This document shows positions 2,150 through 45,385 of a stretch of 64,000 nucleotides of DNA, piece by piece (position 1 is the stretch's first letter; every line of letters starts with the position of its first letter). The notes under the pieces are model-generated. The model was not told the DNA's origin and did no database searches. It saw only the letters and a program-made list of their open reading frames with translations. This DNA is from Caulobacteraceae bacterium (lineage in GTDB: Bacteria > Pseudomonadota > Alphaproteobacteria > Caulobacterales > Caulobacteraceae). The position numbers were made by a program, and so were the translations under genes. The DNA lies in contig CANGCO010000003.1 in the NCBI GenBank assembly GCA_947452365.1, forward strand, positions 1-64,000. The letters run 5' to 3'.

Positions 2150-5100
2150 TCAGGCTTTTTCTTCGGGCGCTTCCTTGGGCGTAATGAAGCGGGCCAGCTT
2201 GGGCCTGAGCCAGTTTTCAAAGTCATCAATCACTTCATAGACGACCGGCACCAGAACCAGGGACAAGACGGTCGAGGTGATCAGGCCACCAATCACCGCC
2301 ACAGCCATGGGCTGACGAAACTCTGAACCCTTGCCCAAGGCCAGGGCTGTCGGCAACATGCCCGCAGCCATGGCCACAGTCGTCATGATGATCGGCCGCG
2401 CCCGCTCTCGGCAGGCCTCGATCAGGGCCTGTCTTTGGCTAACGCCCGTCCGCTCAAGCTCAATGGCATAGTCCACCAACAGGATCGAATTCTTGGCGGC
2501 CAGACCCAGCAGCATCAATATGCCGATCAAGGAAGGCAGGCTGATCGACAAATGCATGATCATCAGCCCAAGAAAGGCCCCGCCAATCGCCAGAGGCAAT
2601 GCCGATAGAATGGTGGCAGGCTTAAAGAAGCTGCGGAACAACAGGGCGAGGACGCCGTAAATCATGCTGACCCCGGCAAAGATCGCCATGCCAAGCGCAC
2701 CAAACAGCTCGGCCATGGCCTTTTGGTCACCGGCAGCGGCCGGCCTAACGCCATCGGGCAGGGCCTTCATGGTCGGCAGATTGTCAATAGCGGCCACGGC
2801 ATCGCCCAGTTGCGCCCCATGATCCAGATCGGCCTCAATCGTAATTTGGCGCTTGCGGTTAAAACGATTGATCTTGGCCGGGCCGGCCTGGAACACCACA
2901 TCGGCCACAGCGCCAAGCGGCACGGTTCCGCCGCTCATGGTTGCTACGGGCAGGGCCTTAATGGCTTCAAGATCGGTGCGTGCGGCCTGGTCTAGACGCA
3001 CCCGGATCGGCACCCGGCGACCAGCATCATTAAATTTAGACACATTGGCATCAATATCGCCCACAGTCGCAACACGGGCGGCGGCGGCAATGGCCTGGGC
3101 TGTGGTGCCCAGCCTTGCAGCCTCGTCCTTGCGCGGCAGGATGACGATTTCAGGACCGCTGGGCGGTGAGGATGGTCTTGGATCTGAAACCTGTTCCAGC
3201 TCATGCATTTCCCGCTCGACCTGCAAGGCCGTGCGTTCCAGCGCAGGTCCATCTTCGCTGGTGAGAATGGTCTGGACATCCGCGCTGCCAAACCCGCCTA
3301 AGAAATTCACCCGGGCATCGGGTATGGTGCGAAGATCAGCGCGCATTTCCTGCTTGATCTGGGTCACGGTCAAGGCGCGGTGATCTTTCAACACCACCGT
3401 AATCGTGCCGTCTCGAACATCCGCCGCGCCGCCGCCACCGCCTGGACCCGTGGTCATTATGGTTGAACCAACCTGGGCAAAGACCATTTCGGTTTCCGGC
3501 CGCGCCATGAATAGGCGTGTAACCTCGCCGACTGTGCGGTCCATATCGGCGCGGGTTGCCCCCGGCGAGCCCTGAACCTTGACATAAAAGAAATTGTCAT
3601 TCGAGGCCGGCTGAAAGCCCTTGGGCAAGAAGCCGGTTAGCATAATCGATAGGACAAAAACCGCGCCGCCGACCGCCACCGAAATAATCCGGTGATCCAG
3701 CGCCCAGTCCAACGCCTTGCGATAGGGCCCTTCAAATGGCTTGCGCGGCTTGGCATGGTGAACGGGTTTGAGCAGATAGGCCGCCATCAAGGGCGTAACG
3801 AACCTGGCCACCGCCAGTGAGAACAAGACCGCGACCGAGACGGTGAGACCAAATTCTTTGAAAAACTGCCCCGCAACGCCGGGCATGAAGGAGACAGGCG
3901 TAAACACCACCACAATCGTCGCCGTGGTCGCGACAACGGCTAGGCCAATCGAATCCGCACCCTCCATCGAGGCGCGATAGGGCCTGGCGCCGGCCTGGAT
4001 CCGTTTTTCAATATTTTCGATTTCGACAATAGCATCATCAACCAGAATGCCGATCACCAAGGTCAGGGCCAAAAGCGTGACCACATTCAGGCTGAAGCCC
4101 ATGATCGCCATAAAGGCAAAGGTCGGGACCAGGGATAGCGGCATGGCTATGGCGGTGATCGCGGTTGACCGCCACTCGCGCAAGAAGGCAAACACCACAA
4201 GGGCCGCCAGCCCCATGCCCTCAAGCATGGACAGCAAGGTGGCATGATAGCTGGCCCGGGTCTCATCGACGGTCGAGAAAATCTTATAGATCTTGATGTC
4301 GCGGCCAGCCTTGGCCTGGGTGGCTTCAAGTCGGGCAATCGCTGCCTTGATCCGGTCCTCAACCTGAACATCGCTGGCCTCCTTGGTCTTCATGACCTGG
4401 AAGCCGACGGCGGGTCGGCCATTTAGACGGGCAAATCCGCGCTCTTCAGCAGCGCCATCGCCAATCTGGGCAATATCGGCCAGACGCACATAGCGGCCCT
4501 GGGCTGGGATCATCAGATTGCGGATCTGGTCAACAGAGGTCGCAGCGCCCAAGACCCGCAAGGTCTGTTCACGCCCGCCGATCTGGGCCCGGCCACCGGC
4601 CACATCGGCATTGAACACGCCCAAGGCCTCGTTCACCGCATTGGCGGTTAGGCCATAGGCGCGAAGGCGTTGGGGATCGAGAATGATATTGATTTCGCGA
4701 TTAACGCCGCCGACGCGCGAGATTTGCGACACGCCCTTTTCGCCCTGAAGGGTCCGCGCGACCGTATCATCAATAAACCAGCTCAGCTCTGACTGGGTCA
4801 TGCCCGGGGCAGAAACGGCATAGGACAGGATAGGCGCATTATCCATTTCCAGCCGCTGCACAATCGGTGACTCGATTTCGCGCGGCAGGGATTGGCGAGT
4901 TTGATCGACCTTGGAGCGGACATCATCCGTGATCTTTTGCAGATCTTGGCCCAGCTCAAACTCGATCACTGTGGTCGAGACGCCCTGGACCACCGAAGAG
5001 CGGATATTCTTCACATTGGACAGGCCAGCCACCGCATCCTCAATCGGACGCGTAATCTGGTTTTCAATTTCCGACGGGGCAGCCCCGCTCTGAACCACAG

Positions 5101-41337: not shown

Positions 41338-42036
41338 ATGATTGATCACCGCCCCTTTGCCAAGCTTGGCCATGCCAATCACGGCTGGCTCAATGCCCGC
41401 CACCACTTCTCCTTCTCCAGCTATCGTGATCCTAACCGAATGAGCTGGGGCGATTTGCGGGTCTGGAATGATGACGAGATCGCTGCGGGCACAGGCTTTG
41501 CCCCGCATGGCCATGAGGACATGGAGATCATCACCTATGTCCGCACCGGCGCCATTACCCACCAAGACAGCCTGGGCAATACAGGTCGCACAGAGGCTGG
41601 GGATGTTCAGGTCATGAGCGCAGGCTCGGGCGTTCGCCATTCGGAAAACAATCGCGAGACTGAAACCACCACCCTGTTCCAGATCTGGATCGAGCCCAAG
41701 ACCCGCGGCGGTGACCCGTCCTGGGGCGCCAAGCCGTTTCCAAAGTCCGATCGCTCTGGCCAATTCATGGCTCTGGCTAGCGGATTTGCGGTGGATACGG
41801 ATGCCTTGCCGATCCGTGCCGAAGCGCGGGTGCTGGGCGCGACCCTAAAGGCTGGGCAAAGCACGATCTATGCCCTAGCCCCCGGCCGCCATGCCTATCT
41901 GGTTCTGGCGGCTGGCTCTGCGGACCTCAATGGCCTGATCTTGCAAACCCGCGATGGGGCGGCGGTTCATGATGAGGACACACTGACCGTCACCGCCTTG
42001 ACCGATGCCGAGCTGGTTCTCGTCGATAGTGTCTAG
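41338..42036 (+). CDS. Pirin family protein
   Basis: A 232-residue bicupin. The N-terminal cupin has the metal ligands in FAPHGHEDMEI (two His) and GVRHSENNRE (His and Glu), as in YhhW and human pirin. Such proteins bind Fe and some degrade quercetin; their bacterial roles vary. The gene is single. Its TAG shares CTAG with the stop of the convergent beta-lactamase. Confidence 0.9.
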   Translation: MIDHRPFAKLGHANHGWLNARHHFSFSSYRDPNRMSWGDLRVWNDDEIAAGTGFAPHGHEDMEIITYVRTGAITHQDSLGNTGRTEAGDVQVMSAGSGVRHSENNRETETTTLFQIWIEPKTRGGDPSWGAKPFPKSDRSGQFMALASGFAVDTDALPIRAEARVLGATLKAGQSTIYALAPGRHAYLVLAAGSADLNGLILQTRDGAAVHDEDTLTVTALTDAELVLVDSV

Positions 42037-42899
42037 GCCGCAGGCCAAACCCCGATCTTGGTCAAGGCCGATTTAAACCGGGTTTGCAATTCGCGGCCCG
42101 GCAGGGCACTAGCGCCCTCCATCGAGACGGCAAAGGCCAGATTCTGGTCCTTGGCCTGAACCCGCCCGACCCACCAGCCGACCGAACGCGAGCCGTCGGC
42201 AAGGCTGGAACAGGTGCCGGTCTTGCCGCTCATGGTCGCATCACCGCGCCGCTCATCGACCATGATTTGCTCAACCACCTCGGTGCTCGAGGCCTTGACC
42301 GGCAGCTGACTATTATAAAGCCGGGCGATAAATGCGCTTTGCTGGCGGGTTGAAATGGTTAGCCCGCCGCCGGCCTGGGGCCCAAGCCAGAACTGGTCGA
42401 CCGGGCCGGCTGGATCGGCCGAGCCATAGTCTAGGGCCTTTAACTGCTTGGCATAGACATCATGCCCAACCGATCGGGCCAGTTTTTGAAACCAGGGCAC
42501 CATGGACAGCTTAAACGCCTTGGCCAGATCCGCGTCCGTCTCCCAGGCCTTGACCGGCTGAGGCTTGCCATCCCAAACCACCACCGCGCTTGGCGTAATC
42601 AGGCCCGCATCCAGCCCGATTAAGGCATTGGCGATCTTGAAGCTGGAACAGGGCGGCAATTGGCGCATGCACACAGCATTGGAGCCATAGGCATAGACCT
42701 CGGCCCCGGTCTTGACCTCGCGGATCGAGACACAGGTGCCCTGACCGCCAAAGCCCTGATCAATGATCGGATTGAGCGCGGCAAAATCAATGCCCTTGGC
42801 CCCGGGCACCTTTGCGGGCGCGCAAGAGGCCAAGATCAGGGCCACCACCGCAATCTGGCCCAGACGCAGGCGACGAGACAAGATTGCAGTTTGGGTCAT
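42033..42899 (-). CDS. Class D beta-lactamase (OXA-like) lipoprotein
   Basis: About 288 residues. The N terminus ends in the lipobox LASC near residues 24-27, so the enzyme is predicted to be lipid-anchored. Catalytic motifs are SSFK (Ser-x-x-Lys), SMV (SxV), YGS in place of the usual YGN, FWLG with the Trp of the omega region, and KTGT. The motif set supports an active serine beta-lactamase. Extra cysteines lie near residues 50, 70 and 77, close to the active site. I use the ATG at 42899 after AGGACG, because 42926 overlaps the upstream crotonase. Resistance spectrum is unknown. Confidence 0.88.
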   Translation of the reverse strand: MTQTAILSRRLRLGQIAVVALILASCAPAKVPGAKGIDFAALNPIIDQGFGGQGTCVSIREVKTGAEVYAYGSNAVCMRQLPPCSSFKIANALIGLDAGLITPSAVVVWDGKPQPVKAWETDADLAKAFKLSMVPWFQKLARSVGHDVYAKQLKALDYGSADPAGPVDQFWLGPQAGGGLTISTRQQSAFIARLYNSQLPVKASSTEVVEQIMVDERRGDATMSGKTGTCSSLADGSRSVGWWVGRVQAKDQNLAFAVSMEGASALPGRELQTRFKSALTKIGVWPAA

Positions 42900-42910
42900 T
42901 CGCTTTCGTC

Positions 42911-43690
42911 CTATTTTCCGGTCCATTGGGGCGCGCGTTTCTGCGCAAAGGCCATGGGTCCCTCGACAAAATCCGCCGATTTAAACATTGAGGCCACGGC
43001 CGGATAGCCAAACTGGCCGCCAATTGCCTCGGCCAAGGTCACGTCCAGGCCCTTATGAATGGCTTCTTTCGAGGCGCGGATCGACATGGGGCTGCACTCG
43101 CAAATCAGGGCGGCCCATTTATGGGCGACCGCCATCAAATCGGAATGCGCAGCAACTTCATTGACAAAACCGAGGTCTAGGCCCTCTTGCGCCGAAACCC
43201 GCCGTCCGGTCAGGATCATGCCCATGGCCCGCTTGAGGCCAATCTGGCGCGGCAGGCGGTGCAGGCCACCGGCGAGCGCCGCCAAGCCCACGCGCGGCTC
43301 TGGCAGGGCGAAAATCGCCTTGTCCGAGGCAATGATCAGGTCGCAGGCCAAGGCAATCTCAAACCCGCCGCCCATGGCAATGCCATTGACAGCGGCAATC
43401 AAGGGCTTGTTCAGATCAAACCGCGAGGTCAGGCCGGCAAAGCCCGAGGGCGGCGAGCCCATCTTGCCGCCCGTGGCCTGGTGTTTGAGGTCATTGCCTG
43501 CGGAAAAGGCCCGGTCACCGGCACCGGTGACAATCCCGACCCATTGTTCAGGATCGGCCGCAAACGTGTCGAACACCTCGTGCAGTTCAAAATGGGCTTC
43601 AGAATGCAGGGCATTCATGACATCGGGGCGGTTCAGGGTGATCGTGGTTATGGGCCCTGCGCGTTCGACAGTGACAAATTGATAGGCCAT
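42911..43690 (-). CDS. Enoyl-CoA hydratase/isomerase family protein
   Basis: A 259-residue crotonase. The oxyanion-hole segments FSAGNDLKHQ and AVNGIAMGGGFEIALACD are present. The Glu in ALPEPRVGLAALAGG near residue 135 is a candidate catalytic acid. It is followed by the beta-lactamase gene 11 bases later, so the two may share a transcript even though their functions seem unrelated. A ribosome site AGGAAA precedes the ATG. Confidence 0.9.
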   Translation of the reverse strand: MAYQFVTVERAGPITTITLNRPDVMNALHSEAHFELHEVFDTFAADPEQWVGIVTGAGDRAFSAGNDLKHQATGGKMGSPPSGFAGLTSRFDLNKPLIAAVNGIAMGGGFEIALACDLIIASDKAIFALPEPRVGLAALAGGLHRLPRQIGLKRAMGMILTGRRVSAQEGLDLGFVNEVAAHSDLMAVAHKWAALICECSPMSIRASKEAIHKGLDVTLAEAIGGQFGYPAVASMFKSADFVEGPMAFAQKRAPQWTGK

Positions 43691-43747: not shown

Positions 43748-44275
43748 CTAGACGTCTATCAGGCCCTTTTGATAGCGCTTCCAGTTTTCGACATAGTGCA
43801 GGGCCGAGCCGGTCAGCATCTGGATCTGGCCCTCACTGACCTCGCGCACCACCTTGCCCGGCGCGCCCATGACCATTGAATTGTCGGGAATTTCCTTGCC
43901 CTCAGTGATCAGGCTATTGGCCCCAATCAGGCAGTTGCGGCCTATTTTGGCCCCATTGAGAATGATCGAGCCAATGCCGATCAGGCTGTTGTCGCCAATC
44001 GTGCAGCCATGCAGCATGACCATGTGACCAACCGTGACATTCTTGCCAATGGTTAGTGGCATGCCAACATCAGTGTGCAAGACACTACCGTCTTGAATAT
44101 TAGTGTTTTCGCCGATTTCTATGGGATCATTGTCGCCGCGCACAGTAACATTGAACCAGATACTGGCGTTCTTTTTCAAAATGACATTGCCCATCACCGC
44201 TGCATTGGGCGCTATCCAGTAATCACCTTCTGAAGGCAGGGACGGTGTCTTGCCGTCCAGGCTATATACAGTCAT
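43748..44275 (-). CDS. Gamma-class carbonic anhydrase family protein
   Basis: A 175-residue left-handed beta-helix protein with hexapeptide repeats ([10 protein letters not shown]-like turns, [26 protein letters not shown]). The three His zinc or iron ligands are in VLHTD and GHMVMLHG. Members include carbonic anhydrases and the PaaY/YrdA group, which can also be thioesterases. The gene is on the minus strand, divergent from phoH. The 339-base region between them holds the phoH leader. Confidence 0.9.
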
Positions 44276-44316
44276 CCGTGCACCTCATATTCAAAATAGT
44301 GATCGAAATTAACCCG

Positions 44317-44344
44317 TTGGCAACGGCTATTATATTATCATAAT
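44317..44344 (+). promoter_or_regulatory. Sigma-70 promoter of the phoH leader
   Basis: TTGGCA (44317-44322) and CATAAT (44339-44344) are separated by 16 bases in a locally AT-rich stretch. Transcription would start near 44351, about 264 bases before the phoH ATG, giving an unusually long leader. Confidence 0.55.
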
Positions 44345-44350
44345 GCAGCG

Positions 44351-44580
44351 ACTCAGCTTGGCTATAGCCATTCTGGGTTCAGGGTCTGGATCTGGCCTCG
44401 CCGAGGTTGGACCTGGTCCAATTTGCGGAGCATGGCGTGTTTCGACTGGCCAAGTTTTACACCTCAATCCCCCGGTTTTCGGGGCTGACTGTGCCGCCAC
44501 CCGGTACGGCCCCCGGCCTCGGCGACCTACCCACCCCAGCCTACCCAAAGAGCGGTCCAATGTGGATACGCTCTTTTTTA
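44351..44580 (+). ncRNA. Candidate structured leader or small RNA upstream of phoH
   Basis: About 230 nt between the promoter at 44317 and a terminator-like hairpin. Visible elements, in order, are: the palindrome TGGCTATAGCCA (44359-44370); a 9-bp closing stem TCGCCGAGG (44398-44406) with CCTCGGCGA (44516-44524); the hairpin TTGGAC-CTG-GTCCAA (44407-44421); CCCCG/CGGGG around 44472-44486; and the terminal hairpin. GGTCCAAT occurs both as an arm of the hairpin and again in the terminator loop, so TTGGACC could pair with either. It matches no RNA family I can name; a 4.5S, 6S, tmRNA or RNase P signature was not seen. Confidence 0.5.
44547..44580 (+). terminator. Intrinsic terminator-like hairpin upstream of phoH
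   Basis: AAAGAGCG pairs perfectly with CGCTCTTT around a 14-base loop and is followed by a T-run (TTTTTTATT), 35 bases before the phoH start. The loop contains GTCCAAT, complementary to TTGGAC at 44407. It may end a small RNA or act as an attenuator of phoH. Confidence 0.65.
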
Positions 44581-44614
44581 TTGTCCTTTTCCCTGACCTG
44601 ATACGGAGAGTCCT

Positions 44615-45385
44615 ATGACCAAACGGGCCCTGAAGCGAATGGTACGCGAAGGTGAATTTGATGCCGGACAATTTGAAGACGCCAAGGTTAGGCGCTTGCC
44701 GGTCGAGCGGGGCTGGTCCCCGATTGGCAGCGCGACCCAAAGGGACGAGGATCGCGATCAGGCCTATGTCAAAACCATAAAACCCAAATCGATTGGCCAA
44801 AAACAATTGATGGACGCAATTGACGCCAAGGCCCTGGTTATGGCGCTTGGTCCCGCAGGCACGGGCAAGACCTATCTGGCCATTGCCAAGGCCGTTGAGG
44901 CGCTCGAGGCCGGCACAGTTGGCCGCATTGTTCTGTCGCGCCCAGCCGTCGATGCTGGCGAGTCGATTGGTTATCTGCCCGGCGATATGGAGGACAAGTT
45001 GGCGCCCTATCTGCGGCCCCTGTTTGATGCCCTGACCGACCGGCTATCCATGAAGCGGGTGCGGGCCCTGATGGCGGAGGGCGCAATCGAGATTGCCCCG
45101 GTTGGCTTTATGCGCGGCCGGACCCTGAATAATGCCTTTGTGGTGCTCGATGAGGCCCAGAACTGCACCTATGCCCAGCTAAAAATGCTGCTGACACGGC
45201 TGGGATGGCACTCCACCATGATTGTGACGGGCGATCCCAATCAGTCGGACCTATTGCCGGGCGTATCGGGACTGGCCGAGGTCGCTAACCGGTTTGAGGC
45301 CCTGGACAATATTGCCGTGGTGCGCCTGTCGGATGTGGATATTGTCCGCCATCCCCTGGTCGCAGAAATGCTCGGCGTCTTATAG
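44615..45385 (+). CDS. PhoH family ATPase
   Basis: A 256-residue PhoH-like P-loop NTPase. A basic N-terminal part of about 50 residues precedes IKPKSIGQKQLMDAI. Walker A is GPAGTGKTYLA near residue 83 and Walker B FVVLDEAQN near 177. SRPAVDAGESIGYLPGD and TGDPNQSDL are PhoH signatures. No PIN or KH domain is fused. It is alone, unlike the common miaB-phoH-ybeY group. PhoH proteins are linked to RNA metabolism or stress. The strong CGGAGAG ribosome site lies just after the terminator-like hairpin. Confidence 0.92.
   Translation: MTKRALKRMVREGEFDAGQFEDAKVRRLPVERGWSPIGSATQRDEDRDQAYVKTIKPKSIGQKQLMDAIDAKALVMALGPAGTGKTYLAIAKAVEALEAGTVGRIVLSRPAVDAGESIGYLPGDMEDKLAPYLRPLFDALTDRLSMKRVRALMAEGAIEIAPVGFMRGRTLNNAFVVLDEAQNCTYAQLKMLLTRLGWHSTMIVTGDPNQSDLLPGVSGLAEVANRFEALDNIAVVRLSDVDIVRHPLVAEMLGVL

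Follow-up and report, generated by a model that had tools for sequence, protein, structure and literature searches.

The pyrBI operon of Escherichia coli senses UTP through pausing of RNA polymerase. Its terminator sits within the 135-bp gene for a leader peptide (PMC4824070), and tight coupling across this leader, pyrL, prevents the terminator (PMC5021804). With a polyproline stall upstream of the pyrL terminator, downstream expression was strongly lowered only in the absence of EF-P (PMC5021804). Proline-rich leader ORFs that tie the speed of translation to downstream transcription are also found in mgtL and mgtP of Salmonella (mgtP: PMC5021804), where a stall raises expression via alternative hairpins. 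The trp, his and ilv attenuators, including the C. crescentus ilv leader (PMC4117421), combine a leader peptide with an intrinsic terminator in the 5' UTR. A ribosome-profiling study mapping the coding potential of Caulobacter reported 94 new CDSs; most were small and some encoded leader peptides, and its main text named leader CDSs of trpS, ileS and ilv. The same main text makes no mention of phoH, though the ORF described below may stand uncommented in the tables of that study. Literature searches returned no description of a phoH leader peptide or attenuator.

The window analysed here is a 64,000-nucleotide stretch of DNA from a member of the Caulobacteraceae. Its phoH leader resembles pyrBI in having an intrinsic terminator inside a leader gene upstream of the regulated gene, the leader gene being about 150-165 nt long for phoH versus 135 bp for pyrBI. 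It differs in that pyrBI has a U-rich pause region for the polymerase, none being evident by eye in the phoH leader, whereas the phoH leader has a conserved Pro-Pro-Gly (PPG) motif and mostly a stop codon over the phoH start. The EF-P reporter shares with it a proline stall motif before an intrinsic terminator inside an ORF; the reporter was engineered with PPPPPP (PMC5021804) whereas the phoH arrangement is natural and conserved. Unlike mgtL and mgtP, no alternative pairing is supported in the phoH leader and, unlike the trp, his and ilv attenuators, it has no conserved antiterminator and its ORF crosses the terminator. The phoH control region is probably a leader-peptide attenuator with a pyrBI-like logic, a conserved PPG and a stop/start overlap.

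The regulated gene, phoH (44615-45385, + strand), starts with an ATG at 44615 preceded by the Shine-Dalgarno sequence CGGAGAG (44604-44610, + strand). Its product of 256 amino acids is a PhoH-family ATPase according to Pfam (PF02562 PhoH, E = 1.6e-79), the score of 209 bits against NCBIfam PRK10536 PhoH being under the cut-off of 380. The closest relatives of the product are Caulobacter and Phenylobacterium proteins of ∼80-85% identity. The leader fills the space between phoH and a divergent upstream gene (43748-44275, - strand) for a hexapeptide-repeat protein resembling a gamma carbonic anhydrase. For comparison, up to 420 nt upstream of phoH were collected from 85 relatives and the window; the family counts below use 84 Caulobacteraceae loci. 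Six genomes of the same genus were included, with complete leaders in four genus mates (L008, L009, L011 and L012).

A first-pass annotation of this DNA had described a promoter, a leader, a terminator-like hairpin and several pairing segments, all of which were found within one base of the places given for them. It had overlooked the leader ORF (44437-44601) spanning the terminator and a GANTC site (44350-44354). The promoter it had chosen, TTGGCA-N16-CATAAT at 44317-44344, is present and is the best-scoring one but is not conserved, and relatives keep a TTAAC...(15 nt)...TAGCAT block instead. In the window, the place of this block is matched by TTAACC (44309-44314) with either TATATT (44331-44336) or TATTAT (44333-44338). 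This probable promoter (44309-44338, + strand), rather than the overlapping TTGGCA/CATAAT, is probably the one in use. The choice of promoter hardly shifts the predicted transcription start, which would lie at ∼44341-44347.

The predicted 5' end of the transcript carries CGACTCA (44349-44355, + strand), which includes the GANTC site for CcrM methylation. On the opposite strand this reads TGAGTCG, in agreement with the extended GcrA motif YGAKTCK, which marks the subset of CcrM sites activated by GcrA (PMC7987155). Of the 84 loci, 83 have a GANTC in the interval 40-135 nt ahead of the ORF start, compared with 23 for a control window of equal size, and CGATTCG, which fits YGAKTCK, is invariant in the core alignment (A1). 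The likeness to the GcrA/CcrM-controlled promoters of Caulobacterales is this conserved GANTC, usually CGATTCG and hence YGAKTCK, at the predicted phoH transcript start; the papers searched gave no binding or cell-cycle data for phoH. The main texts of the GcrA/CcrM papers searched do not mention phoH. The presence of GANTC at the promoter predicts cell-cycle and methylation-linked transcription of phoH.

The leader folds with an energy of -105.1 kcal/mol (z = -3.1), one of 200 shuffled sequences being equally stable. When the leader was used in a BLAST search, only the terminator end was matched even inside the genus, indicating that the leader evolves fast though its layout is constant. Downstream of TTAAC...TAGCAT, relatives have CGATTCG or a different GANTC and then two successive hairpins, with GGAG and the start codon coming next. 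A stretch rich in GC and one rich in pyrimidines lead to the terminator AAGGGCG...CGCCCTTTTTT, which is followed by the phoH Shine-Dalgarno sequence. Both 5' hairpins and the terminator were backed by RNAalifold and by pair counts, in which 91.8% of cells were paired and both sides had changed in 55 cells versus 20 in shuffles. Sliding the partners by 1-3 columns reduced pairing to 59-68% (towards 3') or 38-46% (towards 5'). The two 5' hairpins covary in Caulobacteraceae phoH leaders. The most conserved positions between the hairpins in the core alignment are the first and second bases of the PPG codons, the Shine-Dalgarno sequence and the start codon.

The individual pairings proposed for the window fared less well. 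The segments TTGGACC (44407-44413) and GGTCCAA (44415-44421 and again 44554-44560), which were thought to pair in alternative ways, are present, as is a 9-bp closing stem between 44398-44406 and 44517-44525, but the pairings and the stem are absent from all four genus mates with complete leaders. In the local fold, TTGGACC and the adjacent GGTCCAA are held within a lineage-specific hairpin, AGGTTGGAC-CTG-GTCCAATTT (44404-44424, + strand), which does not occur in the genus mates. A further local hairpin, CGGAGCAU-GGC-GUGUUUCG (44426-44444, + strand), covers the two initiation signals of the leader ORF, its Shine-Dalgarno sequence (44427-44430) and its start codon. Its arms are identical by sequence in L011, and the anti-Shine-Dalgarno pairing is variable elsewhere in the family. 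As both initiation signals lie inside this 8-bp hairpin in the window, initiation may be a second control point.

The leader ORF (44437-44601, + strand), recognised from its translation and from frame statistics, starts with GTG and encodes a peptide of 54 amino acids, MFRLAKFYTSIPRFSGLTVPPPGTAPGLGDLPTPAYPKSGPMWIRSFLLSFSLT. Between its stop and phoH lie 13 nt, and 2 nt separate the stop from the phoH Shine-Dalgarno sequence. In the 84 loci a Shine-Dalgarno sequence stands at a conserved place, and the start codon after the GGAG, whether GTG, ATG or TTG, keeps its position. This position was used to assign the starts, with ORFs required to have at least 15 codons; a few loci offered alternatives, and the sequences are related and not independent. 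In a few species the start is shifted by at least one codon, as in GTC TTG in L052 versus GTG TCG in L043. In Caulobacter vibrioides DSM 9893 (L046, upstream of position 3001) the conserved start reads GTGTGA (GTG TGA CTC TTG) and the ORF would have to begin at the next TTG.

The reading frame is preserved through the terminator. Over the 84 loci, the leader frame has 0 stop codons up to the end of the terminator and the other two frames have 34 and 36; past the T-run, the leader frame is open at 84/84 loci and the others at 56 and 58. With one representative per 70%-identity cluster, the leader frame is open in 26/26 and the others in 13 and 17. The distance from the ORF start to the phoH ATG is in phase 2 at 68 of the 84 loci, and it is at 68 that the ORF overlaps or abuts the phoH start, with the stop on ATGA (48) or T(A/G)ATG (16). 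Frameshifts after PPG are recurrent and yet, since the phase from start to phoH is mostly constant, the frame that ends at the phoH start is retained. A second open frame of 91 amino acids (44343-44618) in the window was considered as the leader gene and rejected: it begins at an ATG inside the predicted transcription start region, lacks a Shine-Dalgarno sequence and has no counterpart in the genus mates. This frame, which runs to an ATGA overlap with phoH, is probably open by chance.

The conserved part of the peptide follows the pattern M-S-R-x-x-x-R-R..PP..[E/G]-P-P-G, with R..PP...PPG as the motif common to the Caulobacteraceae; the window ORF does not have the RR motif. In the window, the codons CCG CCA CCC GGT (44494-44505, + strand) specify Pro-Pro-Pro-Gly, and PPG begins 60 nt past the start codon, the commonest distance in relatives. 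Translations contain PPG in 54 and PP in 79 of the 84 loci. The three aligned codons specify Pro in 77, Pro in 74 and Gly in 68 of 84 loci, with synonymous codons freely swapped and all four proline codons in use. CCNCCNGG shares the frame of the start codon (frame 0) in 50 of 54 cases, at distances of 51, 54, 57, 60, 63... nt, whereas the distances from PPG to the T-run are spread over three phases (26/6/18). This indicates that the coding frame and not an RNA spacing has been kept. Part of the conservation of the RR and first PP codons may be at the RNA level as these codons coincide with an RNA hairpin.

The C-terminal half of the peptide, through the terminator, is unconserved, and indels over the full ORF are not multiples of three. 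Thus the half after PPG is conserved as an open frame only and not as a peptide. Changes at codon positions 1/2/3 in paired sequences numbered 104/96/134 over the full ORF. This bias is weak, owing to the lack of peptide conservation in the 3' half and to the poor quality of distant alignments. Searches of Pfam and NCBIfam with the leader peptide gave no family match.

The intrinsic terminator, AAAGAGCGGTCCAATGTGGATACGCTCTTT followed by a T-run (44574-44579), lies inside the leader ORF at 44547-44579 (hairpin 44547-44576, + strand) and 35 bases before phoH. The first-pass annotation was right about this element: the window hairpin, though missed by a simple terminator scan, folds at -15.0 kcal/mol, and counterparts with a median energy of -19 kcal/mol and a median z of about -3.2 were found at 84/84 Caulobacteraceae loci. 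The stem begins 41 nt past the PPG codons in the window; in relatives, the distance from the end of PPG to the stem is 18-64 nt with a median of 39. In most loci a C-rich, G-poor stretch lies right before the terminator (44525-44546 in the window), and this could be a Rho loading site in addition to an unstructured spacer.

Comparison of the predicted elements indicates that the Caulobacteraceae (84 loci) share this phoH leader design and that it extends in part to the rest of the order. Twelve comparable leader ORFs, in which the terminator is read through, were found in other families of the order and in divergent family members; their starts were picked from read-through candidates and so these counts are supportive but not independent. 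Most of the 12 terminate at the phoH start, with the sequence ATGGGTAA, ATGGCTAA or TGATG. Read-through ORFs of this outgroup also occur where the GC content is 52-60%, a range in which frames are less often open by chance. In L139, from another family, MSHPPPGSRSGRNAPPGFSG... could be followed by eye through the terminator to ATGGGTAA. Across the class, a terminator was found at most 150 nt upstream in 41 of the 66 phoH upstream regions analysed, the families of the order included. One family of the order (f5: L123, L125-L128, L130) keeps GANTC and the phoH leader, with no canonical terminator recognised at these loci. Control of phoH may have shifted to another mode in this family; one member, L123, has an ORF with LRRPRP...DGPPGRAP.

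The comparisons, in which leader, terminator, ORF, reading frame, PPG and stop/start overlap all appear conserved, suggest that the phoH leader attenuates transcription in a translation-coupled manner, as pyrBI of E. coli does, a reading to which we give a probability of roughly 65%. This agrees with the broader proposal of the first-pass annotation, a regulatory, attenuator-like leader that would give a terminated RNA of ∼230 nt. RNA polymerase would start near 44345 at the GANTC promoter and transcribe two or three 5' hairpins, then the Shine-Dalgarno sequence and GTG (44437) of the leader ORF with the terminator inside it. A ribosome close behind the polymerase would keep the terminator unfolded and allow the polymerase to enter phoH, and on terminating beside the phoH start it would re-initiate on phoH. 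If the leader were untranslated or the ribosome lagged, the terminator would fold and phoH would be off. The lag would plausibly occur at the conserved Pro-Pro-Gly. At the spacing commonly seen, the hairpin would not be covered by a ribosome held there. We infer the translation of the leader ORF, the antitermination step and the re-initiation at phoH; a pause set by PPG and EF-P, drawn from analogy with the engineered reporter, is the most speculative element. Points against the model include the weak codon-position bias, the f5 leaders in which no canonical terminator was recognised and, in the window, the missing RR motif, the stop 13 nt short of phoH and the second open frame. A stronger version, which we regard as doubtful, is an order-wide natural polyproline-gated attenuator. 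In it, ribosome speed at PPG, whether set by EF-P or by general elongation capacity, would be read as termination, and expression of phoH would require both efficient elongation by ribosomes and prior activation of the promoter by GcrA/CcrM.

The conserved Arg and Pro codons of the leader peptide would also suit an attenuator of the trp/his/ilv type. There, a ribosome stalled at these codons would let an upstream arm form an antiterminator with the 5' arm of the terminator, and a shortage of charged tRNA would turn on phoH transcription. In L038, the GPP-coding segment does pair perfectly with the terminator arm (GGACCGCCC with GGGCGGTCC, -22.0 kcal/mol). However, this is an isolated case: no conserved antiterminator was found at 82 loci, where pairing of the terminator's 5' arm is no better for the ORF or leader of the same locus than for foreign ones (median rank 0.53-0.57). 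In addition, the leader ORF crosses the terminator and its stop lies after rather than before it, so amino-acid attenuation is rather unlikely. Given that there is no conserved antiterminator, the simplest reading follows pyrBI, with melting of the terminator by the ribosome itself. A small protein translationally coupled to phoH would account for the conserved N-terminal half of the peptide, M-S-R-x-x-x-R-R..PP..EPPG, but the half after PPG shifts frame between close species and the peptide belongs to no Pfam or NCBIfam family. This is the least probable of the explanations weighed here.

Two further explanations give the ORF no part in the control of phoH. The first-pass annotation had proposed a riboswitch or switch between mutually exclusive hairpins, and a ligand-binding RNA of this kind, with the ORF incidental, would be consistent with the stable, covarying hairpins and with the repeat of GGTCCAA in the window. 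This proposal did not survive the comparison with relatives: the named pairings are lost in the genus mates and the terminator's 5' arm showed no species-specific complementarity to its own leader or ORF. The Rfam 15 covariance models gave no leader match at the gathering threshold in the window or at 35 relative loci, nor up to E = 5 across 43900-44900; the first-pass annotation had likewise been unable to match it to a named RNA family. The conservation peaks described above, at PPG codon bases and initiation signals, are also unlike those of an aptamer core, and the reading frame is preserved; we consider a riboswitch very unlikely. A small RNA that ends at the terminator, whether independent or derived from the 5' UTR, with phoH expressed by partial read-through, would have its own promoter, a structured RNA and a strong terminator. 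It leaves unexplained why the frame is preserved through and past the terminator to the phoH start and is unlikely as a full account, though such an RNA can be a by-product of the attenuator.

If the pyrBI-type reading is right, the phoH leader would be a natural and widely conserved case of termination set by whether the ribosome keeps up across a proline motif; until now, pyrBI and the engineered EF-P reporter have been the main demonstrations of this architecture. It would sit upstream of a gene of unsettled function, in a group that includes the model organism Caulobacter crescentus, and would suggest the state of translation as a physiological input to PhoH in addition to a cell-cycle-linked promoter. 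We take the phoH product to be related to YbeZ, a partner in ribosome maturation. The source genome has two PhoH paralogs, the second of which (G000:C27:6398-6994, 47% identity) is presumably the ybeZ-type gene. Elsewhere in the window, the ORF at 42033-42926 (- strand) has the look of a class D beta-lactamase by eye, with SSFK and KTGTCSS motifs.
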